Positions 12,548 to 35,470 of a DNA stretch of 64,000 nucleotides are shown in pieces. The position numbers were made by a program, and so were the translations under genes. Source of the DNA: Hyphomicrobium sp. (GTDB lineage Bacteria > Pseudomonadota > Alphaproteobacteria > Rhizobiales > Hyphomicrobiaceae); NCBI GenBank assembly GCA_003987725.1, contig RXJH01000003.1, positions 433,524 through 497,523 on the forward strand. The letters are read 5' to 3'. The first letter of the stretch is position 1; each line of letters starts with the position of its first letter. The notes below the pieces were generated by a model, which searched no databases, was not told the origin of the DNA, and was given only the letters and a program-made list of their open reading frames with translations.

Positions 12548-12613
12548 CGTGCGTCAACTTACCTTCCTGGGAGCACCGCTGGCACAACCGCGTTAGGCGG
12601 CAACGGGGACTAG
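12548..12613 (+). pseudogene. fragment resembling a tail-fibre 3' end
   Basis: About 21 codons ending in TAG read STYLPGSTAGTTALGGNGD, which resembles the last residues of the tail-fibre protein ending at 9859 (ASYFPGSTAGATSNGGLYL; 10 of 19 identical). No body of a tail gene precedes it. It may be the stub of a second fibre gene left after insertion or deletion. Its end overlaps the 3' end of the convergent gene. Confidence 0.35.
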
Positions 12614-13582: not shown

Positions 13583-13884
13583 CGATTTCCCCCACGATTT
13601 CCCAATTATTGCGGTGCGAAGAATACCCACGCCACGATCGAATTCAATCGCCAGCGAGTGAACTCTCGCTACCGGCACCGCGCACCGTGACGTCGGGCGC
13701 CACGTGAAATGCGTCCGCAAGCGGACATATTGCGCCCCTGCTTTGCTCCAGATTTTTAAGCCTGTCCAAGAAATTGCTGCAACGCGGAGCGGGTTCTCTG
13801 GTGATGTATTTTCATGACCCGGTAGAGCGCCGAGGCTCAGCGCGGCTTCCGGCTAGGCGTTGTGCGTATTTGAGGAGAATTTAT
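13583..13884. promoter_or_regulatory. divergent intergenic region
   Basis: 302 bases between the ATP-grasp-like gene (leftward) and the glycine-rich membrane protein (rightward). It must hold promoters for both. A clear ribosome binding site gaggagaat precedes the ATG at 13885; no other element stands out. Confidence 0.4.
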
Positions 13885-17123: not shown

Positions 17124-19502
17124 GTGACCAACGAAGATGTTGCCGCCACTTTCGTCAGCCGCGCACGCGAGCAGGTCGTCAGTTCGAGAATTGGCGGCTT
17201 GCTCCGGAAAGTCTTTGTCCGCGTCTTCGAACGCGCCTGGGCGATTTGGTATTTATGGAATTGCGAGGTTACGGGCGCAGGCGGCCGCGTCCAAGGCCGA
17301 ATGCGCGTTGAAAATCGCGGCGCCATCCGAATTGGCGGCCGCGTCTTCATCATGTCGCGCTGGGTTCCGACGGAGCTGATCGCTGAGAAAGACGCCCGAA
17401 TTACAATTGGCGACGACGTCTGGATCAATTTCGGCGTTTTGATATCGGCCCACCAAAAAGTCACGATCGGCAACCGCGTAATGATCGGGCAGTACTGCAT
17501 TATTGCAGACAGCCAATTTCCGGATATGCCCGCCGACAGTGCGAGTGAGCACACACAACCCGTCGAAATCGGCGATGACGCGTGGTTGGCGGTCAGAGTG
17601 ACCGTGCGCCCGGGAGTGAAGATTGGCAAAGGCGCCATCATCATGGCCGGTAGCATCGTCGAAAGCGACATCCCCGCCGGCGTCATCGCCGGAGGAATTC
17701 CGGCAAGGCCCATATCGAGAATTGGCGAATCCGAAGCCGATGCGAAGCCATCAGTACAAGGCGCGAGCGCAAATGTTGCGCAACCCGCGGCGGCGCCGGG
17801 CAGCGTCGTTCCGGCTGTTGCGCACCCGGTCAGCGCGCCGAAAATCAACGGCTATCTGATTTCCGATTTCACGATCGATGAACTGAGCAACGAGCTTGTC
17901 GTCTCGGACCTGCATTCGGGCGTTGGCGCGCGCGTGGCGCCGTTCGATCAGGTGACGCAGTCACTGCTTTCGCCGCCGCCCCCCGATGCCGCCGATTTTG
18001 CCGTTGTGTGGACACAGCCACAGAAAGCCGTTCCCTCATTCGCCAAGCTTCTGGCATTCGAACCGCTCGATGACGACGCTCTACAGGCCGAAGTAGACGC
18101 GTTTTGCGCGAAGATCGAAAAGGCTGCCCCGCTCTATCGCAGCGTATTCGTTCCGAGCTGGACGATGCCGAGCTGGCAGCGCGGACTTGGCATGCTCGAT
18201 ACGCGAAAAGGCGGCGTGTCGTCCGCGCTCGTGCGGATGAATTCTCAATTGATGCAGCGGTTGTCCGGTATCTCAAACGTCTATGTCCTGGATGCTTCGC
18301 GCTGGCTGGCAGCTGTTGGACCCTCAGCTTTCAATCCCAAAGCGTGGTATCTCGGAAAGATTGCGTTCGCGCGCCCCGTCCTCGCAGAAGCAGCCCGCGA
18401 TGTGCGCGCCGCACTCGCTTCTCTTTCGAACGGTCCACGAAAGCTGCTCATCCTTGATCTCGACGATACGCTGTGGGGCGGCATCGTCGGCGACGTGGGC
18501 TGGGAAGGCGTGAAGCTCGGTGGCATGGATGCCAGTGGCGAGGCCTTTGTAGACTTTCAAAAAGCAATCAAGGATTTGAAAAAGCGCGGCGTCGTTCTGG
18601 GCATCGTCAGTAAGAACGAGGAGTCGGTGGCGCTCGAGGCCATTCGCAGCAATCCCTCCATGGTTCTGAAAGAGCAGGACTTCGTCGGCTGGAAAATCAA
18701 CTGGCACGACAAAGCACGAAACGTCGCCGAGTTGACGCAGTCGCTGAACCTGGGTCTCCAGTCGGTCGTCTTCATCGACGACAATCCGGTCGAGCGCGCG
18801 CGCGTGCGAGAGGCGCTGCCCGAGGTTTACGTGCCGGAATGGCCGAAAGAAGAATTTCTATATGCAAGTCATCTGCGCAATCTGAGCTGCTTTGATGCGC
18901 CGGCCCTGACCCGCGAAGATGCCGAGCGCACACGCATGTACGACGAGGAGACGCAACGCGAAGCGCTGCGCCAACAAGTTGGCTCGATCGAAGAGTGGCT
19001 CAAAACGCTCGAGATCAAGGTAACGATCGAGCCTCTGAGCTCCACGACATCGACGAGAGCCGCCCAGCTCCTGAACAAGACGAACCAGCTCAACTTGAGG
19101 ACGCGGCGCCTCACGGAGCGCGAATTGATCGAATGGGCTGCGGAGAAAGATAACGCCTTTTGGGTCGTGAACGTCTCGGACCGTATGGGCGATGCCGGTC
19201 TCACCGGTTTGCTGGGAATAAGTTTCGAAGGCGATGTTGCGCACATCGTTGATTTCGTCCTCAGCTGCCGCGTGATGGGCCGTCGCGTGGAGGATACGAT
19301 CGTCCACGTAGCGGTAGCCGCGGCGATCGAGCGAGGGGCGAAGCGCGTTATCGCCAAATACCTTCCCACCGCGAAGAATAAGCCATGTTTGACGTTCTGG
19401 CAGAATTCCGGATTCACGAACGAAGGCGACCGCGAATTCGTTTGGGACAACTCCAGCGCATATCCTTTGCCTGACGTCGTCAATCTCGAGTGGCAGAAGT
19501 GA
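17124..19502 (+). CDS. fusion: LbH acyltransferase domain + FkbH-like HAD-IIIC/GNAT
   Basis: A 792-residue fusion. Residues 50-200 are a left-handed beta-helix hexapeptide domain (ITIGDDVWINFGVLI, VTIGNRVMIGQYCII); 205-240 is an Ala/Pro-rich linker; 243-430 is the N-terminal region of FkbH-like proteins; 439-590 is an HAD-IIIC domain with the nucleophile motif DLDDTLWGG (445-453), SKNEE (496-500) and IDDNPVER (551-558); 620-790 is GNAT-like (NKTNQLNLRTRR). FkbH proteins take the glyceryl group from 1,3-bisphosphoglycerate and load it on an acyl carrier protein. The LbH part lacks the usual catalytic His (DSQFP where partners have DSDFH). GTG start behind a GAGG. The next gene overlaps by 13 bases and encodes an ACP. 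Confidence 0.9.
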   Translation: MTNEDVAATFVSRAREQVVSSRIGGLLRKVFVRVFERAWAIWYLWNCEVTGAGGRVQGRMRVENRGAIRIGGRVFIMSRWVPTELIAEKDARITIGDDVWINFGVLISAHQKVTIGNRVMIGQYCIIADSQFPDMPADSASEHTQPVEIGDDAWLAVRVTVRPGVKIGKGAIIMAGSIVESDIPAGVIAGGIPARPISRIGESEADAKPSVQGASANVAQPAAAPGSVVPAVAHPVSAPKINGYLISDFTIDELSNELVVSDLHSGVGARVAPFDQVTQSLLSPPPPDAADFAVVWTQPQKAVPSFAKLLAFEPLDDDALQAEVDAFCAKIEKAAPLYRSVFVPSWTMPSWQRGLGMLDTRKGGVSSALVRMNSQLMQRLSGISNVYVLDASRWLAAVGPSAFNPKAWYLGKIAFARPVLAEAARDVRAALASLSNGPRKLLILDLDDTLWGGIVGDVGWEGVKLGGMDASGEAFVDFQKAIKDLKKRGVVLGIVSKNEESVALEAIRSNPSMVLKEQDFVGWKINWHDKARNVAELTQSLNLGLQSVVFIDDNPVERARVREALPEVYVPEWPKEEFLYASHLRNLSCFDAPALTREDAERTRMYDEETQREALRQQVGSIEEWLKTLEIKVTIEPLSSTTSTRAAQLLNKTNQLNLRTRRLTERELIEWAAEKDNAFWVVNVSDRMGDAGLTGLLGISFEGDVAHIVDFVLSCRVMGRRVEDTIVHVAVAAAIERGAKRVIAKYLPTAKNKPCLTFWQNSGFTNEGDREFVWDNSSAYPLPDVVNLEWQK

Positions 19503-20290
19503 AAGATATCCGCTCCACCTGCGAAGATGTGCTGCAGCGCCTGCGCACCAAGCATTGGATGCGGGGCGTCGATCGCATCGGCCCGAGACCTTCGCTCAAG
19601 GGCAAGCCGACGATCATGAACCACGGCAGGATCACGATCGGCGAGGATTTTTGTTTTTCTTCCGATCCCATCCAATCCCACATCGCTGCGATCAACGGCG
19701 GGACCGTGCGCATCGGAGACCGCGTCCACATTTCCTACGGCGCCGCCATCGCTGCGCTGGACAAAGTCGACATCGGTGACGACACGCGAATTGGCCCCTT
19801 CGTACAGATCATGGATAGCGACTTCCATCGGCCGGGAAATCGCGATGCGCCGGGCGACACGGGTCCGATCTCGATAGGACGTAGCGTGACGATCGGCGCA
19901 CGGGTCGCGATTCTGAGAGGCACCACGATCGGAGATGGCGCCACGATTCTCAGCGGCAGCATGGTCTCCGGTTACGTCGCCGCTGGAGAAACAGCACGAG
20001 GAGTTCCTGCGCGTGCCGTCCGCGAAACGGCGGGGGATGGTGAGGTCGGATTATCGCAACTCGTTCGGAGCGTGCTTGGCCTTTCGGCACTGCCAGCAAT
20101 GACCGATGGCCCCGACCAGATTCCCGAATGGGATTCGCTCGGTTCACTTCGCCTTTTGCTAGCGGTTGAAGAGACGTATGGAATCTCTGTGGGGGAGCAT
20201 GAATTCCAGGCGGCAGGTACGATAGCCGCGCTTTCCGAGCTCGTTGAGGCGTCCCGCCAATATGAAAACGTGGCCGGAAATCCCGCATAA
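19490..20290 (+). CDS. fusion: LbH acyltransferase + acyl carrier protein domain
   Basis: A 266-residue protein. Residues 40-175 are a hexapeptide-repeat acyltransferase with the catalytic-type motif IMDSDFHRPGNRD (His about 113) and the closing GSMVSGYVAAGETARGVPAR. Residues 188-258 are an acyl carrier domain: EWDSLGSLRLLLAVEETYGI carries the phosphopantetheine Ser at about 216. Enzyme and carrier in one chain suggest that an acyl group loaded on the ACP is passed directly to a sugar hydroxyl. GTG start within the end of the FkbH fusion gene (13-base overlap), so the two proteins are very likely made together. Confidence 0.9.
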   Translation: MAEVKDIRSTCEDVLQRLRTKHWMRGVDRIGPRPSLKGKPTIMNHGRITIGEDFCFSSDPIQSHIAAINGGTVRIGDRVHISYGAAIAALDKVDIGDDTRIGPFVQIMDSDFHRPGNRDAPGDTGPISIGRSVTIGARVAILRGTTIGDGATILSGSMVSGYVAAGETARGVPARAVRETAGDGEVGLSQLVRSVLGLSALPAMTDGPDQIPEWDSLGSLRLLLAVEETYGISVGEHEFQAAGTIAALSELVEASRQYENVAGNPA

Positions 20291-20387: not shown

Positions 20388-21140
20388 ATGACGGCGCCCA
20401 ATATAGCTAATTTCCTCGGCCTGCGATTCGACGGCGGCTCGACCGAAACGGCAATCGACGACATATTGGGCGCAATTAAACAGCCGTTCAGATACGTCGT
20501 CACACCCAACGTCCAGCATGTTGTCGAGATTTACGAGCAGGGTGACTCGCTCAAAGCCAAGTACACAAGCGCATGGCGAATATATTGCGACAGTCGTGTG
20601 CTGAGAAAATTGGCTCGTTTATCTGGTTCGAAGCTCGATGTCGTAACCGGCAGCGATCTCACCGCCCGCCTTTTGGAGCGGGCTTCGGCCCTCGGGCTGA
20701 AAGTCGGAATTATCGGACCGAGCGCGGACGACTGCGCAATCGTCGGTCGCCGCTTTCCTGGCCTCGAAATCGCTTCGTATACGCCGCCGATGGGATTTAT
20801 TAAATCCGATGTCGAGGTCCAGAAATGCATCGCGTTCATTTTGGGCGCGAACGCAGACATCACATTCTTGGCTGTGGGATCGCCGCAACAGGAAATCCTG
20901 GCGCATCGGCTCCTCGAATACCCCGAAGCAAGGGGAGTAGCCCTTTGTATCGGCGCATCGATTGACTTTCTTACCGGGAAACAGCAGCGGGCGCCGCTCT
21001 GGATTCAGAATTCGGGCCTCGAATGGCTGCATCGCCTGTTGTCGGATCCCAAGCGCCTCGCCAAGCGATACCTCGTTAAATGCCCGAAAATATTCGGCCT
21101 GGTCGTCGCGCAAATGATGAATCCGCGATTTCGTTCATGA
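20388..21140 (+). CDS. WecG/TagA/CpsF family glycosyltransferase (GT26)
   Basis: A 250-residue GT26 enzyme. Family features are VVTPNVQHVVEIYEQGDSL, IYCDSRVL, the nucleotide-sugar region LLERASALGLKVGIIG, FLAVGSPQQEILAH, and ALCIGASIDFLTGKQQRAPLW followed by SGLEWLHRL. GT26 members add a sugar (ManNAc, ManNAcA or glucose in known cases) to a lipid-linked intermediate at the inner face of the membrane, usually early in repeat-unit assembly. It follows the ACP fusion gene by 97 bases in the same direction. Confidence 0.93.
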   Translation: MTAPNIANFLGLRFDGGSTETAIDDILGAIKQPFRYVVTPNVQHVVEIYEQGDSLKAKYTSAWRIYCDSRVLRKLARLSGSKLDVVTGSDLTARLLERASALGLKVGIIGPSADDCAIVGRRFPGLEIASYTPPMGFIKSDVEVQKCIAFILGANADITFLAVGSPQQEILAHRLLEYPEARGVALCIGASIDFLTGKQQRAPLWIQNSGLEWLHRLLSDPKRLAKRYLVKCPKIFGLVVAQMMNPRFRS

Positions 21141-21285
21141 ACGCGGAACGTTGTCCTGGGCTTTTCAGAAATAATATGTACACTGAAATCGGCTTTCGTA
21201 CTTTTCCGTGTTGTTTCAGGGCGTACAAGGGGTGCGCTGGCGAATTCTGCATTGGGAATGAATAGCTTTTGATGGTCTCCCCGAA

Positions 21286-22482
21286 ATGTCGGTAGTCGCC
21301 ACTGCATTCGTTTCGGGAGCCCTGGGCGCGCTTGCCTTACTCGTAAGCATTCCCGTTGTTGTTCTTCTAATCGAAGTTCTGGCGGCCCTTCGGAAAGGCA
21401 ATCCCGAGCGCCAGCCGAATTCCAATAGGCCCCCTCTCGCCGTACTTGTTCCGGCTCACAATGAGAGCGTGAGCATCCTTCCGACATTGGCTGATATTTT
21501 GGCTGAGATCGGCCCGCGGGATCGTCTGCTGGTGGTCGCTGATAATTGTTCAGACGATACGGCGGAGGTTGCCCGTTCGGCAGGAGCGGAAGTCATCGAA
21601 CGCCGAGATGACGAAAACCGCGGAAAAGGTCACGCTCTCGACTATGGAATTCGGCATCTGTCAGGTGCAGCTCCCGAGGTCGTGATTATCGTCGATGCGG
21701 ACTGTCGCCTGGAAAAGGGCGCCATCGATACTCTGGCTGAACGTGCGTCCTCGACCGGACGGCCAATTCAAGCCCTTTATTTGATGCACGCACCGGATGA
21801 TTCATCGGTCAACGAGCAGGTATCGGAATTCACGTGGCGCTTGAAGAACTGGGTGCGTCCCCTCGGTCTCGCGAACCTCGGTCTCCCGTGTCAACTGGTC
21901 GGCACAGGAATGGCATTTCCGTGGAGCACCTTGAGCGCCGCCAATCTCGCGACCGGCGCGCTGACCGAGGACCTCAAGCTTGGTCTGGACCTCGCTTTAA
22001 AGGGTCACTTGCCGCTATTTTGTCCGTCTGCGGTCGTGACAAGCACCTTTGCGTCCTCTTCACACGGACGGAATACGCAACAGCAGCGTTGGGAGCAGGG
22101 CCACAGGGAGCTGATTTTCTCGACCGTTCCGCGTGTTCTGTCGTCGGCATTTGCGAGCCGCGATTTGCGATTGATGGCGATGGCCTTGGACTTGGCCGTG
22201 CCGCCAATTTTTCTTCTCGTTCTATTATTGTCGGTGGTCTTCGCGATCACGGCAGCGGGAGCTGCATTGGGTCTGTCACCCGTTCCTTTTTATATCAGCG
22301 GCTCGGCCATTGCCGCGCTGGCGCTGAGCATCGTCATCGCCTGGGCTCGCTACGGACGCGATGCATTGCCGCCAAGATCCTTGCTGTCGATCGTTCCTTA
22401 CGTTTACTCGAAGCTCGTCCAGTACGTTCGGATTCTTGCTGGCAACCGCGCGACCACCTGGGTGAGAACAGACCGAAGCTGA
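21286..22482 (+). CDS. membrane glycosyltransferase family 2
   Basis: A 398-residue protein with an N-terminal membrane segment (ALGALALLVSIPVVVLLIEV), a GT2 catalytic domain (AVLVPAHNESVSILPTLADI, VVADNCSDDT, IIVDADCRLEKGAI as the DxD region, QQRWEQGHR as the Q/RxxRW-type motif) and two or three C-terminal membrane segments. This layout is that of processive or polyprenyl-linked GT2 enzymes such as those of exopolysaccharide clusters. The sugar is unknown. Confidence 0.9.
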   Translation: MSVVATAFVSGALGALALLVSIPVVVLLIEVLAALRKGNPERQPNSNRPPLAVLVPAHNESVSILPTLADILAEIGPRDRLLVVADNCSDDTAEVARSAGAEVIERRDDENRGKGHALDYGIRHLSGAAPEVVIIVDADCRLEKGAIDTLAERASSTGRPIQALYLMHAPDDSSVNEQVSEFTWRLKNWVRPLGLANLGLPCQLVGTGMAFPWSTLSAANLATGALTEDLKLGLDLALKGHLPLFCPSAVVTSTFASSSHGRNTQQQRWEQGHRELIFSTVPRVLSSAFASRDLRLMAMALDLAVPPIFLLVLLLSVVFAITAAGAALGLSPVPFYISGSAIAALALSIVIAWARYGRDALPPRSLLSIVPYVYSKLVQYVRILAGNRATTWVRTDRS

Positions 22483-22591
22483 TGCTGCGATAGTCTGGTC
22501 ATATTGTGAGCAGTACGGTCGCGGCGATTGCCTATACACGCGGAGCCGCGTGCCTCATCGCCAAAGTGAATAATTCGCGCCGGTAAATGCA

Positions 22592-22614
22592 TCAGTCAGG
22601 TTGGTACTGACTGA
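22592..22614. promoter_or_regulatory. perfect 7-bp inverted repeat in intergenic gap
   Basis: tcagtca and tgactga are separated by nine bases in the 395-base gap before the GT39-like gene. It could be an operator or a short hairpin; there is no T run, so a terminator is unlikely. Nothing else stands out in this gap. Confidence 0.3.
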
Positions 22615-22877
22615 CGAATTCGCAGTCAGCCCATTGGAGATTCAGCGGAACGATTATTTACGTTTTTGCGCTTTTTCTGGCGCGATGACCTGACGAATAG
22701 CCTATGTAATTGGATGAACAGCAAAATGGACAGCCATCGCCAGCCTTGCTCGGGAATGCCGCGCTTAACATGCGTTTCATTCTTGTTACAAAGGGAGCTT
22801 ACTTTGGCGATGTCTTGGGTTCCGGAAACGTATCGGACGCCAGCGGTCATACGCGTCGTCGAGACATCGAGATAGAT

Positions 22878-24149
22878 ATGGTTGCCACGACGAACACCCG
22901 GCCCCTGTATGCCAATTACCCATTGATCATAGCCGTCGTCGCCCTGGCCGCGTCGCTGGCTATGGTCTTCGGCGTCTTCCGTCTGCAAACTTTTGTCGCG
23001 AACGCGGGCGATCCGTATCAGTACGGCGAACTCGCACGTGACCTTGCCGCAAACGGTTTCACGAAATTGACCCGCAGGGGCGCGTCGCTCTACGTGGAGG
23101 CCATCGCCGTCATCTATCAACTTGGCGGTAGCAACTTTACGGTCGTGCTGCTCCAATGTCTCCTGCACGCAGGCACGTGCTTGCTCGTATTCGCGCTCGG
23201 AAAGCGTCTCTACAACGCGCGAACGGGCCTGCTGGCCGGTCTCATTTGCGCTCTGCATCCGATGCTTTTGCGCTACGTGGCAGACTTGCACCTCGAAACG
23301 TTCTTGACGTTCCTCTGCGTGCTGACGGTCTGGTTCTCCGTCCGTTTTCACGATCAACCGACCGTGGCTAACGGTATCCTGCTTGGTGCGGTCGGCATGA
23401 TCGGGACGCTGGCGAAGGGTGTGATCCTCCCGCTCGTCGTCGTGTTCGGCATCATTAGCTTCGTATTCGCCATCAAACGGCGGTCGATACGGGAAGTCGT
23501 AGCCGTCGGCGCCATTTTCGTGACTATGGCGCTTATTCTGGCGCCTTGGACGTATCGAAACTATCAAGTCACGGGTGGCAAATTTGTGCTCCTGACGCCA
23601 GGGTCGAGCGACTCTTTCCTGCGTGGTTACATCTTCACGCGCATGGAGTTCGCCACGCTGCAAAAGCCTCCGTTTACGGATGCCGAGAACGAGTCCAATG
23701 CGTGGTTCCGCAAAATCGCCAGCGATGCCGGCACCACGTGGGAGGCCGACGAGGTTGTCGACGAGGCGAACAACGCACGTGTCGCCAAGGAAATGATTGT
23801 TACGCAACCGCTCGACACGGCCCGCAAGATCTTCGTCGGACTTTTCACGTTCTGGTATGAGATGACGTCATTGCCGAATTCGCTGGTCCCGGCCGTCCTG
23901 GCCGTCATCGGCTGGGTGCTGGCGTTCATCGGCTGGCGTCGGTCCCACAGCGAAGGGCGACCGGCCTGGCTGCTTTGGGTTCCGATCGTGGTCATGAACG
24001 TGCTGGTGGCGATCTTAATACCCTTGGGGCGCTATTCAGTGCCGATACTGCCGCTTCTAACGATCATGGCGGCATTTGGAATCGACACGCTCCTGGATAG
24101 GCGAGGGCTCCGCAATTCGGCGGAAGCTTCGTCGCCAGCGGCGGCCTGA
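22878..24149 (+). CDS. ArnT/PMT-like polytopic glycosyltransferase
   Basis: A 423-residue integral membrane protein with about ten predicted membrane segments. After the first segment comes a periplasmic loop with GDPYQYGELARDLAANG, the position where GT39/GT83-type transferases carry their acidic catalytic residues, then HPMLLRYVADLHLETFLTF and LGRYSVPILPLLTIMAAFG, which match the layout of PMT_2-domain enzymes. These use polyprenyl-phosphate sugars on the periplasmic side. The downstream UbiA/HAD/GtrA genes could supply such a donor. Start at 22878 chosen because the first membrane helix follows; the frame is open 56 codons further upstream. Confidence 0.8.
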   Translation: MVATTNTRPLYANYPLIIAVVALAASLAMVFGVFRLQTFVANAGDPYQYGELARDLAANGFTKLTRRGASLYVEAIAVIYQLGGSNFTVVLLQCLLHAGTCLLVFALGKRLYNARTGLLAGLICALHPMLLRYVADLHLETFLTFLCVLTVWFSVRFHDQPTVANGILLGAVGMIGTLAKGVILPLVVVFGIISFVFAIKRRSIREVVAVGAIFVTMALILAPWTYRNYQVTGGKFVLLTPGSSDSFLRGYIFTRMEFATLQKPPFTDAENESNAWFRKIASDAGTTWEADEVVDEANNARVAKEMIVTQPLDTARKIFVGLFTFWYEMTSLPNSLVPAVLAVIGWVLAFIGWRRSHSEGRPAWLLWVPIVVMNVLVAILIPLGRYSVPILPLLTIMAAFGIDTLLDRRGLRNSAEASSPAAA

Positions 24150-24665
24150 CGATCTTTCCTATCGCCAATTTCGTCGCGCATTTCTCGAAGACTCGAGATT
24201 GCGGCGCTGCCGGCCGGCTGGCTGTCGTGGTCCGTGTGCTGCTGGGATTCAAAGGCATCGCATGACGCTTCGAATGCACACTGACGGTCCCAATGATATC
24301 GAGGGCTTCTCCGTCGCTTTCACCAGATCAATCCACCTTCTCCGCACTTTCTGAATGTTGTTTTTTAGCGACGGCCAGATCTAGCGTTGCCCATACGTTT
24401 TGCAGTCTGCATGAAATTTAATACGCGGGCTGAACTGCGGCGAGGGCCATGCTTTGTCTCACAAATTGAATTTATCGAAGATATAATTAGCAAAGCATCG
24501 AGTATTGCAGTGTAAACTCGGGGCGTCTGGCGGGGAAATAAAAGCTTTTTTAGATGCGGCGACGGAATCTTGTCGGCTCGATTTTACGAATATCGGCGAA
24601 AGCGGTTGTCGTTTGTCTTTGAAAATAAGTGAGACTGCGGCGCACGAAAGGAAAGATGTCAATCC
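24150..24665. other. long gap, no convincing gene
   Basis: 516 bases with lower G+C than the flanking genes, between the GT39-like gene and the UbiA gene. Only short frames with no codon bias are present. A promoter for the UbiA operon is expected near its right end. Confidence 0.4.
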
Positions 24666-25649
24666 ATGGTCTTGTCGGAAAGCTCACCGGCCGGCGCGCC
24701 GCAACGGGCCGGTTTCAAGGAATATCTTGCGATCGCCCGGCTCGATCATAGCACTAAGCACATCTTCATCGTCCCCGGCATCATTCTCGCCTACTTGCTT
24801 CGAGGCGTTCGCACCGACCACCTTTTCCTGTCCCTGGTGCTCGGCTTCGCCGCCGCGATCTGTATCGCTTCGGCCAACTACGTGATCAATGAATGGCTTG
24901 ATCGCGATTTCGACAAGCACCACCCCGACAAGTCGAAACGCGCGGCCGTTCAAAAAGTCATGAGCGGCCCGATCGTCGCGGCCGAATGGGGTCTCCTCGT
25001 CGCGCTTGGGCTGACCTTCGCGGCGCTGTCGAGCGAACTCATGTTCCTGGTCGCTTTTCTCTTTGCGGCGCAGGGCGTCGTCTACAACGTCAATCCTCTG
25101 AGAAGCAAAGATAAGGCCTATCTCGATGTGATTTCGGAATCGATCAACAATCCGATCCGCCTGGTGATCGGTTGGGCGATCGTCGATCCGACGTCGCTGC
25201 CTCCGGGATCGATCATCCTGTCGTATTGGTTCGGTGGCGCCTTCCTCATGGCCGCGAAACGCCTATCCGAATATCGCGAAATCGTCGCGTCTAAAGGGCT
25301 CGATCTCCTGGTGCGCTACCGCGCCAGCTTCGCTCAGTACACAGAGACATCGCTGACCGCTTCCTGCTTCGCCTATTCGTTGCTCTCCGTCTTCTTTCTC
25401 ACGGTCTTCCTCGTGAAGTACCGCATCGAATTCGTGCTCATCGTCCCGATCGTCGTGCTGCTGTTCACGACCTATTTCTCGATGTCGACGCTGCCGGGAT
25501 CGTCGGCTCAAAAGCCTGAAAAGCTTTTCCGCGAGTCCGGCCTGATCGCGATCGTATTGGCCTTGGTGGCGACGTTCGTCTTCACAAGCTTTGTCGACAT
25601 CCCGTTCCTCGAAAAGCTTGCCGAACAGCGCTACATCACGCTCCAATGA
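24666..25649 (+). CDS. UbiA family prenyltransferase, polyprenyl-phosphate phosphoribosyltransferase-like
   Basis: A 327-residue polytopic protein with 8-9 membrane segments. The first Asp-rich motif is NEWLDRDFDKHHPDKSKR and the second region is around NPLRSKDKAYLDVISES. The sequence (ARLDHSTKHIFIVPG and RLSEYREIVASKG) fits the subgroup containing mycobacterial Rv3806c and rhizobial NoeC, which joins phosphoribosyl pyrophosphate to a polyprenyl phosphate, rather than quinone or heme prenyltransferases. The HAD phosphatase gene starts within its stop codon (ATGA), matching the next step of that pathway. Specificity is inferred from family and context. Confidence 0.82.
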   Translation: MVLSESSPAGAPQRAGFKEYLAIARLDHSTKHIFIVPGIILAYLLRGVRTDHLFLSLVLGFAAAICIASANYVINEWLDRDFDKHHPDKSKRAAVQKVMSGPIVAAEWGLLVALGLTFAALSSELMFLVAFLFAAQGVVYNVNPLRSKDKAYLDVISESINNPIRLVIGWAIVDPTSLPPGSIILSYWFGGAFLMAAKRLSEYREIVASKGLDLLVRYRASFAQYTETSLTASCFAYSLLSVFFLTVFLVKYRIEFVLIVPIVVLLFTTYFSMSTLPGSSAQKPEKLFRESGLIAIVLALVATFVFTSFVDIPFLEKLAEQRYITLQ

Positions 25650-26347
25650 TGGACGCAAAGATTGACTGGAGTACGATCCGCCTCGTCGCCTTCGACGTTG
25701 ATGGAACTTTGTACGACCAGAGGGCTATGCGCTTGCGCATGTTACGCGAGATCGCCGCCAACGTGATGCAAACGCGCAGCCTGACGGCGTTGCGCGTCCT
25801 TCGCACGTATCGGCAGCTGCGAGAAAGCATTGGCGATGACGAGATCGACGGCTTCGAGGACGTTTTGATCGCGCGCACGGTCAAGGCAAGCGGCGTCGAC
25901 CAAACGACTGTGCGCTCTATCGTTGCCGAATGGATGGAGAGGCGCCCACTCACGCACATTCGCGCCTGCCGCTACCCCCACGTGACCGAGCTCTTTGCGG
26001 CGTTGAAACAGAAAGGCAAGACCATCGGTATCCTCTCGGACTATTCTGCAGGCGATAAGCTGCGCGCGATGGAGCTTAAAGCCGACCATATTGTTGCAGC
26101 GGGTGATGCCGGTGTCGGAATCCTTAAACCCCACCCTCGGGGCCTCGAAGTGCTCATGAAACAAGCTGGAGCAAGCCCCGCCGAGACGATCCTCATCGGC
26201 GACCGGATCGAGAGAGATGGCGCAGCCGCACGCCGTGCCGGAGCGATGGCGCTGATCCGTTCCTCCCGGCCGCTAGATGGCTGGCTGCACGTTTCGACGT
26301 ACGCCGATCCGCTGTTTGCACCCCTGTTCGAACGGTCGCCGGGATGA
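25646..26347 (+). CDS. HAD family phosphatase
   Basis: A 233-residue HAD hydrolase. Motif I is AFDVDGTLYDQ (about residues 14-24), motif II is ILSDYSAGDK, the conserved Lys is in GILKPHPRGLE, and motif III is ILIGDRIERDGAAARRAG. Located by 4-base overlaps between the UbiA-like gene and a GtrA-like gene, it probably removes the 5-phosphate from polyprenyl-phosphate phosphoribose, the role taken by a phosphatase in the arabinan-donor pathway. The substrate is inferred from context only. Confidence 0.85.
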   Translation: MMDAKIDWSTIRLVAFDVDGTLYDQRAMRLRMLREIAANVMQTRSLTALRVLRTYRQLRESIGDDEIDGFEDVLIARTVKASGVDQTTVRSIVAEWMERRPLTHIRACRYPHVTELFAALKQKGKTIGILSDYSAGDKLRAMELKADHIVAAGDAGVGILKPHPRGLEVLMKQAGASPAETILIGDRIERDGAAARRAGAMALIRSSRPLDGWLHVSTYADPLFAPLFERSPG

Positions 26348-26736
26348 TCTCCAAATTCGTCCGCTACATCGGAACCGGAGGGGCCGCAGCCGTCGTCGAC
26401 GTTTCCGGATTTCACGTTCTGCTGAATGCAGGACTTCCGATCGCAATTGCGGCGAGCCTCAGCTGGCTCATCGCCGCGTTTGTCAATTATCACCTGACAA
26501 GCCGCTTTGTTTTCGAGCAAGCAGCGAGCAGAGGCCGGTTTCTGCAGTTTCTGCTTGGCGCCGCCGTCGGACTTTCCATCAACGTCGGCGTCACGTTGAT
26601 CTGCGCCACGCTGATCGGTATCGCCCCGCTTCTTTCTAAGGTGATCGGCATCGGCACCGCGTTCGTCATCAATTTTTTTATCAATCTGCTTTGGGTCTTC
26701 AGAGCGCCGCCGCGCGACTTAGGCCCGGCGCCTTGA
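26344..26736 (+). CDS. GtrA family membrane protein
   Basis: A 130-residue protein with four membrane segments and the GtrA-type ends: RYIGTGGAAAVVDVSGFHVL at the start and ISWLIAAFVNYHLTSRFVFE-like SWLIAAFVNYHLTSRFVF in the middle, with FVINFFINLLWVFR at the end. GtrA proteins are thought to move polyprenyl-phosphate-linked sugars across the inner membrane. It begins in the stop of the HAD gene (ATGA), completing a synthesis-dephosphorylation-flipping set. Confidence 0.88.
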   Translation: MISKFVRYIGTGGAAAVVDVSGFHVLLNAGLPIAIAASLSWLIAAFVNYHLTSRFVFEQAASRGRFLQFLLGAAVGLSINVGVTLICATLIGIAPLLSKVIGIGTAFVINFFINLLWVFRAPPRDLGPAP

Positions 26737-26807
26737 TTGCTCTCGTCACGATCGAGAACTACATTCGATCAATGCACGAAATCATGGTCCGCTTCCTGGA
26801 GAGCAAA

Positions 26808-27941
26808 ATGGCCAGTTACCAATTTGCTCGCCTGAACCAGTGGCTGGTAATTCTCTTCATTTGTTTCGTGGTCACCGCCTGTCAGGGGAAGTCGCAGACT
26901 GCGCGCGGCGTCTGGGAGAACGTGACATCGCCGGAGATGCCAGCATCGCTTTTTAAGGGCCTGGACGGTTTCGGCGTGGGCAACATCGTGGTCGATCCCG
27001 CGCGGCCCAGCGATCTTTACGCCGGCGGCTATGGATCGATCTGGAAATCGACGGACTATGGGAAGACCTGGGCTGAGCTTCCTAGCCGGCCAAACCCGCC
27101 GTATCTGCCGCTTGGCCACGTACTCGCTATAGCGGGCACGACGCCCGCGACGCTGTGGGTGGCGAACGTGCGAGGCGCGCAGAAGGTGTTCAAGTCGATC
27201 GACGGCGGTCTGACATTTCGGCTCACGGGATTGCTGCCGGAAAACTACGATTCAAGCTTCTATTCGATCGTCGTCGATCCCCATGATCCATCGCACCTGA
27301 TCACGGGTTTCCATGAAGCTGACCGCCTCGCGGAGTCGACGGACGGCGGCGAAACATGGCGCTTCGTGTCTGGCACCGGCTGGCCATCGGGCGGCGTATC
27401 GTGGTTCCCGTTCTTCGTCGAAACGGGCGAGGCTGCGACAACACGCAAAACCTGGTTCGCCATTCCGCAGGGCAGCGGTTCGGCTGTCATGACCAGCGAC
27501 GGCGGCGCGACTTGGACGGAACCCAAGGGCATCGAGGGCCTGACGCATCCACATGGCGGCACACAGCTCTATCAGGTGGGCCAAACTCTCTTCATCGGCG
27601 GCTGGCGGCCCTCAACGGGCAACGGGGTCTATCGCAGCGTCGATCTCGGCGCAAACTGGACGCGCGTAACGGATGGCGATGCCGCGATCGTTTGGGGATC
27701 GGAAAAGACGGTCTACGCCATGTGGGGCTGGGCGTGCGCAAGCTGCGGAATGAACGAGGGAGGTCCAAAACTGCAGACGGCACCGCAGCCCGGTGACCCT
27801 GGCACCTGGACCAAACAAACGGCGCTCCCCGCCGGCCTCGTCTGGGGGCCAAATAGCGTTGCGGTAACATCCGACGGCACGCACAACATCTTCGTCGGCT
27901 CTATGTGGGCCACGGGACTATGGCGCTACTTCGAGCCGTAA
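26808..27941 (+). CDS. lipoprotein with Asp-box (BNR/sialidase-type) repeats
   Basis: A 377-residue predicted lipoprotein. The signal peptide WLVILFICFVVTAC ends in a lipobox with Cys near residue 24. The body carries at least five Asp-box repeats (KSTDYGKTWAEL, KSIDGGLTF, ESTDGGETWRF, TSDGGATWTE, RSVDLGANWTR), so it folds as a beta-propeller. Catalytic residues of sialidases are not evident; a glycan-binding or polysaccharide-processing role is more likely. ATG at 26808 has the ribosome binding site ggagagcaaa and directly precedes the signal peptide; the frame is open further upstream. Confidence 0.8.
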   Translation: MASYQFARLNQWLVILFICFVVTACQGKSQTARGVWENVTSPEMPASLFKGLDGFGVGNIVVDPARPSDLYAGGYGSIWKSTDYGKTWAELPSRPNPPYLPLGHVLAIAGTTPATLWVANVRGAQKVFKSIDGGLTFRLTGLLPENYDSSFYSIVVDPHDPSHLITGFHEADRLAESTDGGETWRFVSGTGWPSGGVSWFPFFVETGEAATTRKTWFAIPQGSGSAVMTSDGGATWTEPKGIEGLTHPHGGTQLYQVGQTLFIGGWRPSTGNGVYRSVDLGANWTRVTDGDAAIVWGSEKTVYAMWGWACASCGMNEGGPKLQTAPQPGDPGTWTKQTALPAGLVWGPNSVAVTSDGTHNIFVGSMWATGLWRYFEP

Positions 27942-28552
27942 CGCGCTGGTTCTGTCTGTAGGCAATGCATATCGAACCGGCTTTTCACCGCGCCGTAATG
28001 CGCCCACGCCTGCCGCGATAACGGCATCTGCTGTCCGTCGAAATTTTTCCCCGGGCGCCCCGATCCAGCCACTAAAGCACTGGAATTACATGCCAAGGAT
28101 CATCCATTGGGCAATTAACTTTCCAGAAAGAAAGGGCGCTTTGGCGGCGCAAATCCGGCTTAAAGTCAATTCTTCAATCTTTTGCTGCTAACAGCCGATG
28201 AGGAGTGGAAATCCGCAAAGGCGTTTGGAGGAATAAAGAGCGGAATCTCCCGCTCTATCAGCAGGCGTCAAATCTTCGACTGGGTTCGCGAGCGTCTCGC
28301 TGAATCGGATTTAGCTGCCTGATGCCTTCTGGATTGGCAACTTTGCGGACCGGACTACGCGGCGATCTGCAAAATAAGCAAGACGTCCGACAACCATCAG
28401 AAAACGTAATTGAGGCGACGACGGCTGGTCGGAAGATTGCTATCGTCGGGCGGGATGAGAAGTGGCAAGACAGACCGTCATCCCTGATGAGAGAATGTCA
28501 AGTAATTGTATTATAGGAATAACCGAACTCATCGATCGTTTGGGCTCCGTAT
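27942..28552. other. 611-base gap with a possible gene remnant
   Basis: No complete gene is convincing. A stretch of about 53 sense codons from 28164 to the stop at 28320 (ending SRRQIFDWVRERLAESDLAA) looks like the C-terminal end of a protein but has no ATG or GTG start, so it may be a decayed gene. Codon bias in the remainder is absent and A+T is raised near 28450-28550, where a promoter for the next operon is expected. Confidence 0.35.
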
Positions 28553-29791
28553 ATGCCAGTCCGTGTACTGTTCTTAAATACGCGCGATCAGTGCGGTGCG
28601 GACGTTGCTGTGCATCTGACGCTCATGGCCAACTTCGCTTCGGACGAAGCCGAGGTCTTTGTCCTGTCGAATAGCGAGGCGTCGGACGCCGAAGAGATGC
28701 GGGTTCGCTTCGCCGGAATGCCGCATGTTTCGAGCACGTTTCTGCCGCTTGGGAAACCCGCCAACGCGTTGTCAGGCAGAAACAGGCTGAGCAAAGCGCT
28801 CGCCTATGGACCGAGCGCCGCGTCATTGGCAAAGGCTGCCGCGTTCATCAAGCGCAACCGCATACAAATCATTCACGCCACCGACCGGCCAAGGGATGCC
28901 AGCTACGCGAGCTTGCTCGGGCGTGTGACCGGCGTTGCGTCCGTCGTACACATGCATTCGCATCTCGGCGATTATCACACCGCCCCAACACTTTGGGGAA
29001 TGCGCAATGCCACGGCGATATTCGCCATCTCGGACTACATAAGAGATGGACTGGGCCGTATGGGAATGGATCTGAAAAAAATCCATACGATCTATAATTC
29101 CGTCGATACCGATCACTTCGACCCTCAAAAAGAATTTGCAAGCTCGGCGAACATTCGCGCGCAGTTCGGCATTCCGGAAAAGGCACCGCTCCTCGGAATT
29201 GCGGCGCGGATGAATCCTTGGAAGGGACAGCTCGAGCTCATCGGCGCGGTGGCACTGCTGCGAGAAACGCACCCCGATCTGCACATCATGATCCTCGGCT
29301 CCGATGTGCCTGAGGTCCGGGCGGAATTTGAAAAGCGCGCGCGCGAAGGCGGCATCGCGGATCGCCTCCATTTCGGCGGATTTCAAAAAGATGTTCGGCC
29401 GTTTCTTCGTGAGTTCGATCTGTTCGTGCATCCGTCCTATGGGGAGCCCTTTGGTCTCTCGATCGCCGAGGCGATGGCGATGCAAAAGCCGGTCATCGCT
29501 TGTGGCACGGGCGGCGTTCCCGAAATCATTACGCATGGCGTGGACGGACGGCTCGTGGAGGAGCGATCTGCCGAGGCGGTCGCGACGGAAATCGCGATGT
29601 TGATGGGCGATCCCGATCTTCGCCGGCGATTGGGCGAGCACGCCCGGCAAACCATCCGCCTGCGTTTTACGCCACGCCAGCAGTGTAGTGAGGTCGCGAG
29701 GCGCTACGAAAATCTCGTCGCTGCATCCAAGGGTGAAGCGCTGCGAAACATTCCGAATTCGTTGGGAGTTGACGGAGGTCCACGATGCTAA
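28553..29791 (+). CDS. glycosyltransferase family 4
   Basis: A 412-residue GT-B enzyme. The N-terminal half contains IQIIHATDRPRDASYASLLG; the C-terminal domain has LGIAARMNPWKGQLELIGAV, LRFHFGG-like LHFGGFQKDVRPFLREFDLF and the donor-site motif PSYGEPFGLSIAEAMAMQKP (E-x7-E). It retains the configuration at the sugar. First gene of a tight group with PhyH, GMC, AKR and a polymerase-like gene; overlaps the next gene by 7 bases. Confidence 0.92.
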   Translation: MPVRVLFLNTRDQCGADVAVHLTLMANFASDEAEVFVLSNSEASDAEEMRVRFAGMPHVSSTFLPLGKPANALSGRNRLSKALAYGPSAASLAKAAAFIKRNRIQIIHATDRPRDASYASLLGRVTGVASVVHMHSHLGDYHTAPTLWGMRNATAIFAISDYIRDGLGRMGMDLKKIHTIYNSVDTDHFDPQKEFASSANIRAQFGIPEKAPLLGIAARMNPWKGQLELIGAVALLRETHPDLHIMILGSDVPEVRAEFEKRAREGGIADRLHFGGFQKDVRPFLREFDLFVHPSYGEPFGLSIAEAMAMQKPVIACGTGGVPEIITHGVDGRLVEERSAEAVATEIAMLMGDPDLRRRLGEHARQTIRLRFTPRQQCSEVARRYENLVAASKGEALRNIPNSLGVDGGPRC

Positions 29792-30618
29792 CAGTTGACG
29801 AAGGTGCCCGCACGGCAGGTGAAAAAGCGAAGCCACTCACCGAAGCGGAAAAGGAAGATCTGAAAGAGGCGTTTGCACGCGATGGCTACTTCGTCATTCG
29901 CAATGTCGTCTCGCCGGAGCGGCTGGCCGAATTGCATAAATCGCTCGAGCAGGAATTCGAAGCGGCTACAAAGTCGGGCGCGCTGTTTTCGGGCGGCGGT
30001 CTCAGAAGCGGCCATCTCAACTGCTTCCCGGGTCAGGCTGGGCGGTTCGTTTACGACACCCTGCAAGACAAGGGCATCATCGACCTGATCAAAGAGATCG
30101 ATCCGAGGGTCGTTCGCATGCCGAACGTCGGCTGCAATTTCAATCTGCCCGGCAGCCACACGCAGCACTATCACCTCGACCGTCCCTTCACGCGGGACTT
30201 CATGATCGCGAACGTCGCGGTCGTCGACTCGACGATCGAGAACGGCGCGATGGAGGCGATCCCGGGCACGCACAAACGCTTTTATAAATATACCCAGTTC
30301 GTCCTCGAGCGCGTGGCACGCAACGCCGTGCGCGTTCCATTGAAACGGGGCGACGTGCTGGTCCGAACCTCAAATGTCTGGCATCGCGGAACGGCAAACC
30401 ATACGTCTGCCCCCCGTCCGATGCTTGCCATGACCTGGGAGGACGGCGGCAACAACCTCGAGGATCCGTTCGCAGCAGACGGTGGGAAAATCAAATTCCT
30501 CCCGAACTGGTTCAAGCCGACCAGAGCAGGACGGATTCGCGAGGAGTTATTCGTGAAGGTGCCCGTTACCTATTCTGCGCTTCGCTTTGCTCGCTCTCTC
30601 GTGGACAAAGAGTACTAA
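29785..30618 (+). CDS. phytanoyl-CoA dioxygenase (PhyH) family protein
   Basis: A 277-residue Fe(II)/2-oxoglutarate-dependent dioxygenase. FARDGYFVIRNVVSPERLAE is the usual PhyH opening, HYHLDRPF contains the HxD metal ligands, GAMEAIPGTHKRF follows, and NVWHRGTANHTS gives the distal His with the 2-oxoglutarate-binding Arg nearby. It would hydroxylate or otherwise oxidise an unactivated carbon of a lipid or sugar. It sits between a GT4 and a GMC oxidoreductase gene (7-base overlap upstream, 9-base gap downstream), so its substrate is probably linked to the polysaccharide. Confidence 0.88.
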   Translation: MLTVDEGARTAGEKAKPLTEAEKEDLKEAFARDGYFVIRNVVSPERLAELHKSLEQEFEAATKSGALFSGGGLRSGHLNCFPGQAGRFVYDTLQDKGIIDLIKEIDPRVVRMPNVGCNFNLPGSHTQHYHLDRPFTRDFMIANVAVVDSTIENGAMEAIPGTHKRFYKYTQFVLERVARNAVRVPLKRGDVLVRTSNVWHRGTANHTSAPRPMLAMTWEDGGNNLEDPFAADGGKIKFLPNWFKPTRAGRIREELFVKVPVTYSALRFARSLVDKEY

Positions 30619-30627
30619 GCAAAAGCC

Positions 30628-32106
30628 ATGCAGGATGAACGTCAGGTCGTGGTCGTCGGCAGCGGTCCGGCGGGCGCCGCGGCCGCCCGCGAACTCGTGG
30701 AAGCCGGAATCTCGGTGACGATGCTGGAAGCGGGCACGCGCTTTGAGCCTGGTCTGCTCGTGCGGTCCGGCGGTAAGAATCTTTACCGCCGCACCCCCCC
30801 GCTGCGGGAGGAGGGCGGGCATTCGGTGTCTGGCGATCCGCAAACCGTATGTTATGCGAAGCTTGCTCCGGGTGGGCTCTCCAATTGCTGGACCGGCGCG
30901 GTGCCGCGCTTTGCGCCGGAGGATTTCACCGAAGGCGAGAGGCTGCACGAACGCTATCGGTGGCCGATCACGTACACGGATCTTGCGCCCTATTACGAAA
31001 AGGTCGAGCGCTCGCTCGAAATCACGGCCGATCGCCGGGATAAACCGCAACTGCCCGGCGGGTACGCTGCCTATGACCGCCGCATTCCGGAGGATTGGGA
31101 AGATGTGGAGCGGGCGGCGAACCGCCATGGCCAGGGCTTCACGATCTATCCTCTCGCGGACGGCAAGCCGACGATGCTCGTCCGCCGCGGAACAGCCTTC
31201 AATAGCTTCACCAACATTGTCTCCCCTCTGCTCAAGTCATCGAATTTCCGTTTGGTGACCGGCGCCTACGCCTTGTCCCTTGAGTGGTCTCCTGAGAAGG
31301 GGAAGGTCGACGGGCTGCTTTATCACGACCGCCACACGGGCCAGACGAAACGCATCGAAGCCGATGCCGTGATCGTCGCGTGCGGTCCGCTCGGAACGGC
31401 CAAGCTTCTGCACAACTCGGTTTCCAAGGATTTTCCGGAGGGATTGGGCAACTCGGAGGGGCTGCTTGGACGCTTCCTGCACGATCACCCTCGTGAATGG
31501 TGGGCTTTCGAGATGGACCACCCCCGCAAGCTCCTCTCTCCCGCCGCGTACATGACGCGCCTGCCCTACGATACCTCGCCCCCGCTCATGGCGACCTCGT
31601 GGACGCTCGGAGTGGCTAACGTCAGCGATCGCGTTCGAAGCCGCTTCGGTCAGTCTGGAACGACGGTCGGTGTGCAGATGATCGGGACGATGATCCCGAC
31701 GGAGTCGTGCGTCGCGAAACCGTCGGCGACGAAGAAAGATGAATTCGGACTCCCTGTTCTCGATGTGTGCATTCGCTACAGCGATCAGGAAGTCGAGAAT
31801 GTCGTTCGCGCCCGCCAGCACCTCCTCGACGTGTTGGAGGATGCAGGCTGCCGTGCAACGATAGGAGAGATCGTCCCGACCTTGTTCCCGGGAACGATTG
31901 CTCACTACGGCGGAACCGCCCGGATGCACGCAAAGCCGGAGTACGGCGTCGTGGATGCCTGGAATCGCGTTTATAGCGCTCCGAATGTCCTCGTCTGCGA
32001 TGCCGCCTGTTTCACGACTGCCGCTGAAAAGAATCCAACCCTGACAGTGATGGCGATTGCGGCGCGGGCGGCAACGCGCCTCGCTCGCGATCTGAAGCAC
32101 GCCTGA
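30628..32106 (+). CDS. GMC family FAD oxidoreductase
   Basis: A 492-residue flavoprotein. The FAD motif VVVVGSGPAGAAAARELVEAG is at residues 7-26; YAKLAPGGLSNCWTGAVPRF is the substrate-side region of GMC enzymes; IVACGPLGTAKLL and the C-terminal GGTARMH...NPTLTVMAIAARAA agree with the family. GMC enzymes oxidise alcohols, including sugars and sugar alcohols. Ten bases separate it from the AKR gene. Together with PhyH and AKR it may build or edit an unusual sugar or lipid group. Confidence 0.9.
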   Translation: MQDERQVVVVGSGPAGAAAARELVEAGISVTMLEAGTRFEPGLLVRSGGKNLYRRTPPLREEGGHSVSGDPQTVCYAKLAPGGLSNCWTGAVPRFAPEDFTEGERLHERYRWPITYTDLAPYYEKVERSLEITADRRDKPQLPGGYAAYDRRIPEDWEDVERAANRHGQGFTIYPLADGKPTMLVRRGTAFNSFTNIVSPLLKSSNFRLVTGAYALSLEWSPEKGKVDGLLYHDRHTGQTKRIEADAVIVACGPLGTAKLLHNSVSKDFPEGLGNSEGLLGRFLHDHPREWWAFEMDHPRKLLSPAAYMTRLPYDTSPPLMATSWTLGVANVSDRVRSRFGQSGTTVGVQMIGTMIPTESCVAKPSATKKDEFGLPVLDVCIRYSDQEVENVVRARQHLLDVLEDAGCRATIGEIVPTLFPGTIAHYGGTARMHAKPEYGVVDAWNRVYSAPNVLVCDAACFTTAAEKNPTLTVMAIAARAATRLARDLKHA

Positions 32107-32115
32107 TTTCATCGC

Positions 32116-33135
32116 ATGAAGATCAACGAATTCGGCAAAACCGGCATGCAAGTTTCCGAGATCGGCTTTGGCGGATCGCGGATCGGCGGCTTTTTTGCGA
32201 ATAAGAACGGCGCTAGCGATGCGCTGAACGTTCTCCAGAAGTCCTTGGATGCGGGCATCACATTCTACGATACCGCCGACATGTACGCGCAGGGCGAAAG
32301 CGAAGCCCTGATCGGGAAGGCCTTTCGCGGCCGCCGGCAGCAGGTCGTCCTGGCGACAAAGGGCGGATACTGCCTTCCCGCGCAGCGCAAACTCATGCAG
32401 CGGATCAAACCCTTGGTCCGCCCGATTGTGCATGCGTTGGGACTGAAGCGATCGAGTTTGCCCTCGGCCGTTTCCGGAGCGCTGTCGCAGGACTTCTCGC
32501 CGTCGTATTTGACTGCGGCCCTGGAGGCGAGCCTAAAACGTCTGCAAACGGACTACGTTGATCTCTACCAGCTGCATAGTCCCCGCGCGCCTTTCCTCCA
32601 GACCGGTGCTTTCGGCGAAGCACTTGAAACACTCGAGAAGCTGAAGGGGCAGGGAAAACTGCGCTTTTACGGAGTAGCAACGGAAGTGGTGGAGGATGCT
32701 CCGTTCTGCTTGTCCGCTCCCGGTATCTCCTCGCTACAACTCGGTTTCGGATTGCTCGACCCCGAAGCGCTCGATGAGGGCATCTTGGCGGCCGCTGAGG
32801 CCCGAGGTCTCGGAGTGATCGCGCGTGGATGCTTTGGTGGCGGGCTCTTGAAAGATGGCCTGGATGAAGATGCGCTGAAGGCTGCCACACCTAAGTGGCG
32901 GCGCATCCTGGCCCTGCGGGCGCTGAGCGAGAAGCTGGGCCGCCCGTTGCTCGATAGCGCCCTGCAATTCTGTCGTGCGACGCCCGCCGTCAGCGTAACC
33001 TTGCTTGGAATGCACACGGAGAAGCATCTGAGCGATAACGAGCGCTATTTCCGTTCTCCAAACTTGACCGCCCAGGAATACGCCGAACTCTGTCGCTACA
33101 TTCGGGAATTGAAAGAAGAGCCCCTTTACGATTGA
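32116..33135 (+). CDS. aldo/keto reductase
   Basis: A 339-residue AKR. ISEIGFGGSR-like VSEIGFGGSRIGG opens the barrel; FYDTADMYAQGESEALIG carries the catalytic Asp and Tyr; VVLATKGGY the Lys; YQLHSPRAP the His. The C-terminal LLGMHTEKHLSDNERYFR is in the nucleotide-binding region. It would interconvert a sugar or aldehyde carbonyl with NAD(P)H. Placed between GMC and the polymerase-like gene with almost no spacing, it is likely co-transcribed. Confidence 0.9.
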   Translation: MKINEFGKTGMQVSEIGFGGSRIGGFFANKNGASDALNVLQKSLDAGITFYDTADMYAQGESEALIGKAFRGRRQQVVLATKGGYCLPAQRKLMQRIKPLVRPIVHALGLKRSSLPSAVSGALSQDFSPSYLTAALEASLKRLQTDYVDLYQLHSPRAPFLQTGAFGEALETLEKLKGQGKLRFYGVATEVVEDAPFCLSAPGISSLQLGFGLLDPEALDEGILAAAEARGLGVIARGCFGGGLLKDGLDEDALKAATPKWRRILALRALSEKLGRPLLDSALQFCRATPAVSVTLLGMHTEKHLSDNERYFRSPNLTAQEYAELCRYIRELKEEPLYD

Positions 33136-33189
33136 GTGGCCGGCGCACTCTACAGTCGACTGGACCTGAGACACTCTGGAGAGAAGACC

Positions 33190-34596: not shown

Positions 34597-34762
34597 ACGA
34601 CCGTCACGCTTCGATGAGACACTCCCACACATTGTGACGTGTTGAGCGTTTCGAGTAGAGATCAGGAACTTCGGAAGTTGTGCGGAGCCGCCGTGAGATC
34701 AGCGAGCAGGTTCTTTCTTGAGGGCAAGCAACCCGCGGATCTTAGGTAAGGATACCTGCACG

Positions 34763-35356: not shown

Positions 35357-35470
35357 CGCCGGTAGACTTTCGGCCCTTCCGGGGCGCGATGGCGATCGTC
35401 CGCACAACGCGTGTCCGGCGAACCCAGGCCGGCCTAAAGCGCCGGATTGGCAGCAAACGCGCCGCGCACG

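Follow-up and report, generated by a model that had tools for sequence, protein, structure and literature searches.

Two overlapping genes, here termed A and B, were analysed in a 64,000-nucleotide stretch of Hyphomicrobium sp. DNA (assembly GCA_003987725.1, contig RXJH01000003.1, positions 433,524 to 497,523 of the forward strand), which is referred to below as the window. Gene A encodes a hexapeptide, left-handed beta-helix domain (LbH1) connected by a linker to an FkbH module, and gene B encodes a second such domain (LbH2) fused to an acyl carrier protein (ACP) domain. We consider it fairly probable that the two proteins form an acylation system of an exopolysaccharide locus, in which FkbH would load a glyceryl group onto the ACP of protein B and LbH2 would esterify a sugar with it. 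What is new is the LbH fusion on both partners, whereas the parts (FkbH, ACP and LbH) and the pairing of FkbH with ACP are known. A preliminary description of this DNA had reported two overlapping genes, LbH-FkbH followed by LbH-ACP; both open reading frames (ORFs) were found at the coordinates it gave, and a domain search returned both architectures there. The genes are composed as follows, where pLDDT is the predicted local distance difference test score and dN/dS the ratio of nonsynonymous to synonymous substitution rates.

17124..19502, + strand: protein A, LbH1, Ala/Pro linker and FkbH, 792 aa (ORF list, family profiles, structure model)
17241..17723, + strand: LbH1 domain, residues 40-200; Asn102 and Trp154 kept, Phe132-Pro133 instead of the catalytic His
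17724..17837, + strand: linker, residues 201-238; nearly all at pLDDT <50, dN/dS 0.51
17838..19499, + strand: FkbH module, residues 239-792; N-terminal alpha/beta domain, HAD-IIIC domain and GNAT-like domain with Cys715
19490..20290, + strand: protein B, LbH2 and ACP, 266 aa (ORF list, Pfam, structure model)
19490..20044, + strand: LbH2 domain, residues 1-185; His113 present, Ser82 in the Asn column and Thr134 in the Trp column
20045..20275, + strand: ACP domain, residues 186-262; phosphopantetheine Ser216 in EWDSL

Domain composition of proteins A and B

That protein A contains FkbH, as the preliminary description had proposed, was confirmed by a TIGR01686 match of 284.9 bits over residues 440-767 against a curated cut-off of 146.65, and the same protein matches the HAD-IIIC family TIGR01681 at 64.6 bits (cut-off 35.75) and the Hexapep family PF00132 at 38.2 bits (cut-off 27). 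The HAD-IIIC residues D445, D447, T449, S496, K530, D552 and D553, together with C715, are invariant in all 86 FkbH rows aligned. The FkbH part was modelled at high confidence, with BF1531 (3slr) as the top PDB match by both sequence and fold and mostly GNAT enzymes as further fold matches, and the Ala/Pro-rich linker region (residues 188-237) lies at pLDDT <50.

Protein B matches PF00132 at 42.2 bits. Its carrier domain scores 22.2 bits against PF00550 (PP-binding; gathering cut-off 20.8, E 1.7e-4), a match that is marginal if taken alone and whose alignment starts only at profile position 30. A held-out profile, built from eight ACPs that adjoin FkbH in relatives and without B, gave B 27.6 bits (E 1e-10 in a one-sequence search), hhalign matched the carrier to this FkbH-adjacent ACP type at 96%, and the ACP part of B used alone as query retrieved an FkbH-adjacent ACP at E 1.1e-6. 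Because the carrier is homologous to ACPs adjoining FkbH in relatives, its assignment is firmer than from Pfam alone, and the earlier claim of an ACP with an intact Ser holds. Helices were modelled in this domain at residues 188-195, 197-204, 216-230, 236-240 and 242-261, at pLDDT <50.

Conservation and occurrence of the gene pair

If the GTG at 19490 is taken as the start of B, the two genes overlap by 13 bases; the sequence also offers an alternative in-frame GTG at 19499, which would give a 4-base GTGA overlap. The same two-gene arrangement is found in the metagenome-assembled genome (MAG) SZAS-16 of the same genus (JAFECE010000003.1), in which A is 91% and B 89% identical. Nei-Gojobori dN/dS values, which come from this one genome pair, are 0.11 for LbH1, 0.51 for the linker, 0.067 for FkbH, 0.127 for LbH2 and 0.10 for ACP, and all four domains are under constraint. 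Constraint on LbH1, which is devoid of the catalytic His, shows that this domain matters without telling its role. A sequencing or fusion artefact was ruled out because architecture, gene order and constraint all recur in the second assembly.

Full-length matches to A were found in two of 150 genomes (source included), namely the source and the MAG (genome G015), and B was found in the same two. A genome_contigs search with A matched eight loci, one of them (L001) at full length; L001 and locus L113, identical in their A and B sequences, are one record of G015, and the double LbH architecture is represented by two genomes, not three. Matches to B at E 1e-12 were detected in 28 of 385 genomes of the class (source included), none of which, apart from the source, extended past residue 193, hence the ACP was never covered. 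Among plasmids, 89 records match A (E 1e-20) and 228 match B (E 1e-5), with no match extending over 80% of its query. In the genomes and collections searched, the double LbH fusion is present only in the source and one same-genus MAG.

FkbH itself is widespread: at E 1e-50 it was detected in 32 of the 385 genomes of the class and in 52 of 398 drawn from the phylum (source included; the draws partly share genomes). Loci were taken for the best FkbH matches only; 80 were examined, and with the source and G015 set aside the fusion count covers 78 loci, not every match. An LbH profile of four sequences (E 1e-3) matched neither the FkbH ORF nor the adjacent ACP ORF at any of the 78. An ACP lies within 400 bases of FkbH on the same strand at 63 of them (23 upstream, 40 downstream), as counted with ACP profiles built partly from those very loci, and at the other 15 none was found so near in the available flank (mostly ~1.5 kb). 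In the gene-neighbourhood check proposed in the preliminary description, the LbH-FkbH/LbH-ACP pair thus recurs in one MAG of the genus; pairing of FkbH with ACP is itself common, and the idea that the latter is rare was discarded. Separate LbH ORFs were seen in the wider flanks of two of 23 FkbH loci, L102 (two) and L003 (one).

The FkbH-ACP pair is found in differing gene settings. The cluster around L003 contains NeuB-, NeuC- and PIG-L-like genes, as judged from translations, and on a Streptomyces plasmid FkbH and ACP adjoin ketosynthases and a phosphopantetheinyl transferase. On S. meliloti pSymB, genes annotated as MBOAT family, TonB-dependent receptor, ACP and HAD (FkbH) stand in a row (L122:3153-8188, CP140934.1), with a capsular polysaccharide gene ~5 kb further; this row is a possible Dlt-like glyceryl transfer cassette, and it places the FkbH-ACP pair near another type of acyltransferase as well. 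From these settings we infer that the pair resembles a portable unit for loading that serves varied downstream enzymes.

In a tree of the 86 FkbH rows (quick method; six row labels assigned by hand), A and its ortholog fall in a 17-row clade, apart from the other FkbH groups sampled, with a Shimodaira-Hasegawa-like approximate likelihood ratio test (SH-aLRT) value of 100. All 15 other rows of the clade have a different small gene directly upstream of FkbH; its profile was made from 14 of these genes and detected the fifteenth (L079/L109) at E 1e-18. A Ser is invariant in 14 of 14 rows, and we call this type ACP-like because the best PP-binding score of four members is 12.8 bits, under the cut-off, and hhalign against the other ACP type gives 47%. 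The carrier of B belongs to that other type and not to the ACP-like type of its own clade (hhalign 96% versus 15%). Given the different upstream gene in the 15 other members, the simplest reading is that the upstream partner was probably replaced in the A/B lineage by the downstream LbH-ACP fusion. At six of 11 clade loci with wider flanks (the flank of L111 being short), a protein family of ~345 aa follows FkbH directly or within ~0.5 kb (L107:9658-10701, L106:6980-8005, L103:9637-10668, L102:10066-11205, L108:9816-10907 and L110:9182-10678). The family gave no Pfam match above cut-off (five members) and no NCBIfam match (four members), one member has a weak GNAT match (E 0.0024, under cut-off), and we regard it as a candidate acyltransferase downstream of the ACP-like/FkbH pair.

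The position of A in the tree bears on the identity of the acyl group. It appears distinctly unlikely that this is other than glyceryl, either through activation of another phospho-acid by the FkbH clade of A or through alteration of glyceryl on the ACP before transfer. Such a view would be in keeping with the separation of the clade from the other sampled groups, of which clade we know of no assayed member, with the VOC, MaoC or GDSL genes near some clade loci, and with the GMC and AKR oxidoreductases, PhyH and C-methyltransferase of the window cluster. However, all eight HAD and Cys residues checked are common to the rest of the FkbH family sampled, and a Pfam scan of 37 window ORFs found no acyl-CoA or hydroxyacyl-CoA dehydrogenase family.

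Active-site residues and the proposed acyl transfer

Passages of PMC3046976 state that the crystallised LbH family members, as of that NeuO paper, all carry their catalytic His on a loop that protrudes, and that acetyl-CoA-using LbH enzymes also use a Trp supplied by the adjacent subunit. We aligned LbH1, LbH2, their orthologs, LacA/GAT and 15 further LbH rows taken from the loci fetched, including LbH3, which is encoded in the same locus, and its ortholog, and compared the columns of GAT Asn85, His115 (or the next residue) and Trp139. Asn85 presumably has a role in GAT. At these columns LbH1 has Asn102, no His (Phe/Tyr-Pro in both orthologs) and Trp154, and LbH2 has Ser82, His113 and Thr134, so that the two patterns, unchanged in the orthologs, are reciprocal: LbH1 has Asn and Trp without His, and LbH2 has His without Asn and Trp. 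His113 lies one column past GAT His115, like that of LbH3 and other near kin. LbH3 has the full set, and the 15 other rows have Asn in 11, His in 13 and Trp in 12 (one row gapped at the Trp column); the two rows without any of the three are both from L014 and look like more distant hexapeptide families. With the catalytic His missing in both orthologs, independent acyl transfer by LbH1 is unlikely, and the earlier view of it as a separate transferase is not supported.

The preliminary description had also envisaged transfer without acetyl-CoA, and a different donor is plausible because LbH2 has lost the Trp of acetyl-CoA-using enzymes and is fused to an ACP. It seems to us highly improbable that the LbH domains are ordinary O-acetyltransferases using acetyl-CoA whose fusion to the FkbH and ACP of another pathway came about by chance: LbH1 and LbH2 do match best to LacA, WcaF, WbbJ and maltose O-acetyltransferases (in every case far under the family cut-off), but neither domain has a full acetyl-CoA site, and both fusions occur in adjacent overlapping genes kept under constraint in two genomes.

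In passages of PMC3679948 and PMC8949500, FkbH proteins are described as loading glyceryl from 1,3-bisphosphoglycerate onto a carrier. In the mechanism that we favour, the FkbH of A would take D-1,3-bisphosphoglycerate and bind the glyceryl as a thioester to one of its own Cys residues, for which Cys715 is the candidate, the HAD site would remove the phosphate, and B would receive the glyceryl in trans on the phosphopantetheine of its Ser216. LbH2, with His113 as base, would then transfer it from the ACP to a sugar hydroxyl (or amine) without acetyl-CoA, the predicted acceptor sugar belonging to the lipid-linked repeat unit or to its nucleotide precursor. LbH1 would not be an independent enzyme; it would anchor FkbH to LbH2, whose active site it may complete within a mixed trimer.

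This last arrangement, which we put forward tentatively and hold to be somewhat doubtful, would be a mixed LbH trimer with a site split between the two genes, His coming from LbH2 and Trp and Asn from LbH1 across the interface. The trimer would unite FkbH and ACP, so that loading, carriage and acylation would be carried out by one obligate two-gene machine running on a glycolytic acyl-phosphate without CoA. The reciprocal residue losses are compatible with such a joint site in a mixed trimer but are no proof of it; against it, LbH2 alone may be sufficient with an ACP donor. If true, this would be an unusual case in which two related domains within a trimer divide the catalytic residues between them.

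The same losses can be read differently, namely that FkbH and ACP make the acyl-ACP, that the two LbH domains act solely as scaffolds for trimerisation, and that LbH3 or an Acyl_transf_3 protein transfers the acyl group. The incomplete sites of LbH1 and LbH2 beside the complete one of LbH3, and the two Acyl_transf_3 genes 20-25 kb from the A/B cassette, fit this explanation. We think it unlikely, however, as the LbH2 His is kept in both orthologs in a domain with a dN/dS of 0.127, the Trp missing from LbH2 is one reported for acetyl-CoA users and its loss fits an ACP donor, and LbH3, whose set is complete, resembles an ordinary enzyme using acetyl-CoA.

Several points weigh against glyceryl transfer by A and B. 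Both the loading and the sugar acylation are predicted from sequence, and Cys715 is presumed to be the acyl-enzyme Cys from its invariance and from work on OzmB-like enzymes. The residues missing from LbH1 and LbH2 could mean that both domains are structural, and the other acyltransferases of the cluster (LbH3 and the two Acyl_transf_3 proteins) might use acyl-ACP. The dN/dS values reflect a single genome pair. For B, the AlphaFold model is of low quality (mean pLDDT 53.7, ACP <50) and gave no Foldseek match at E 0.001, and LbH1 is weak in the model of A, with block means of 42-68 over residues 41-190.

The polysaccharide locus and known systems

The polysaccharide setting given in the preliminary description was borne out by genes for glycosyltransferases (GTs), Wzy_C, a flippase, an export protein and a priming sugar transferase around the cassette.

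20388..37039, mixed strands (flippase 35471-37039 on -): polysaccharide genes beside the cassette, WecG/TagA GT, EpsU-like GT2, PMT_2, UbiA, HAD, BNR, GT4, PhyH, GMC, AKR, Wzy_C, LbH3 and flippase
34718..35356, + strand: LbH3, stand-alone hexapeptide transferase with complete Asn/His/Trp (LbH alignment)
40835-41959 and 43870-44979, - strand: two Acyl_transf_3 membrane acyltransferases, rival users of an acyl donor

Between 15546 and 39439, 17 window genes were checked; 16 of them have partners with 81-95% identity in the same order in L113, where the fetched stretch truncates DAO and the flippase at its ends and the seventeenth gene, GH9, would lie beyond it. A C-methyltransferase family match at 46604-47893, 26 kb from the cassette, is the only methyltransferase match among the ORFs scanned. 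The UbiA prenyltransferase gene (24666-26347) overlaps the HAD hydrolase gene and adjoins that of the PMT_2 glycosyltransferase; its best NCBIfam match is decaprenyl-phosphate phosphoribosyltransferase, far under cut-off, and it may make a lipid-linked pentose donor. GH9 cellulase-like (37403-39439) and apiosidase-like (58360-60042) glycoside hydrolases are encoded inside the exopolysaccharide cluster, and two long ORFs had no Pfam match at the limits used (11286-12509, +, 407 aa; 12593-13720, -, 375 aa).

Passages of PMC9104527 and PMC6796983 describe gellan, a bacterial exopolysaccharide, as carrying L-glycerate, and so glycerate-bearing exopolysaccharide exists in nature as a product class. 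The enzyme that attaches the glycerate is not named for gellan in those passages and was not found in the open-access literature searched, an absence that is no proof of novelty. A and B represent a concrete enzyme candidate for the attachment of glycerate esters to bacterial polysaccharides, and would, if this is true, link polymer decoration straight to glycolysis through its intermediate 1,3-bisphosphoglycerate. The di-O-methylglyceroyl pseudaminic acid of Campylobacter was not used as a precedent; the passages of PMC3068675 mention neither an acyl carrier nor Cj1302.

A and B resemble the FkbH/BafAIV glyceryl transferase-phosphatases of methoxymalonyl-ACP cassettes, as these are presented in passages of PMC3679948, in FkbH homology, HAD motifs, invariant Cys and partner ACP. 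Unlike those cassettes, A and B have LbH on both FkbH and ACP and lie in an exopolysaccharide locus, with no polyketide synthase and no methoxymalonyl dehydrogenases among the 37 window ORFs scanned. With the LbH sugar O-acetyltransferases (LacA/GAT, MAT, WcaF and NeuO) they have in common the hexapeptide fold, the His in LbH2 and the Asn and Trp in LbH1, but no one domain has the whole Asn/His/Trp set and one is fused to an ACP. LpxA and LpxD are LbH acyltransferases that depend on acyl-ACP, as proposed for A and B, but they use a fatty hydroxyacyl group, the general AcpP and a lipid A acceptor and are unfused; AntD also has the LbH fold. LpxD-ACP and AntD entries were among the non-significant Foldseek rows for B. 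AntD, according to PDB titles an N-acyltransferase crystallised with 3-hydroxybutyryl-CoA, transfers a short hydroxyacyl group to a sugar, as proposed for A and B, but with a CoA donor, an amino-sugar acceptor and no FkbH.

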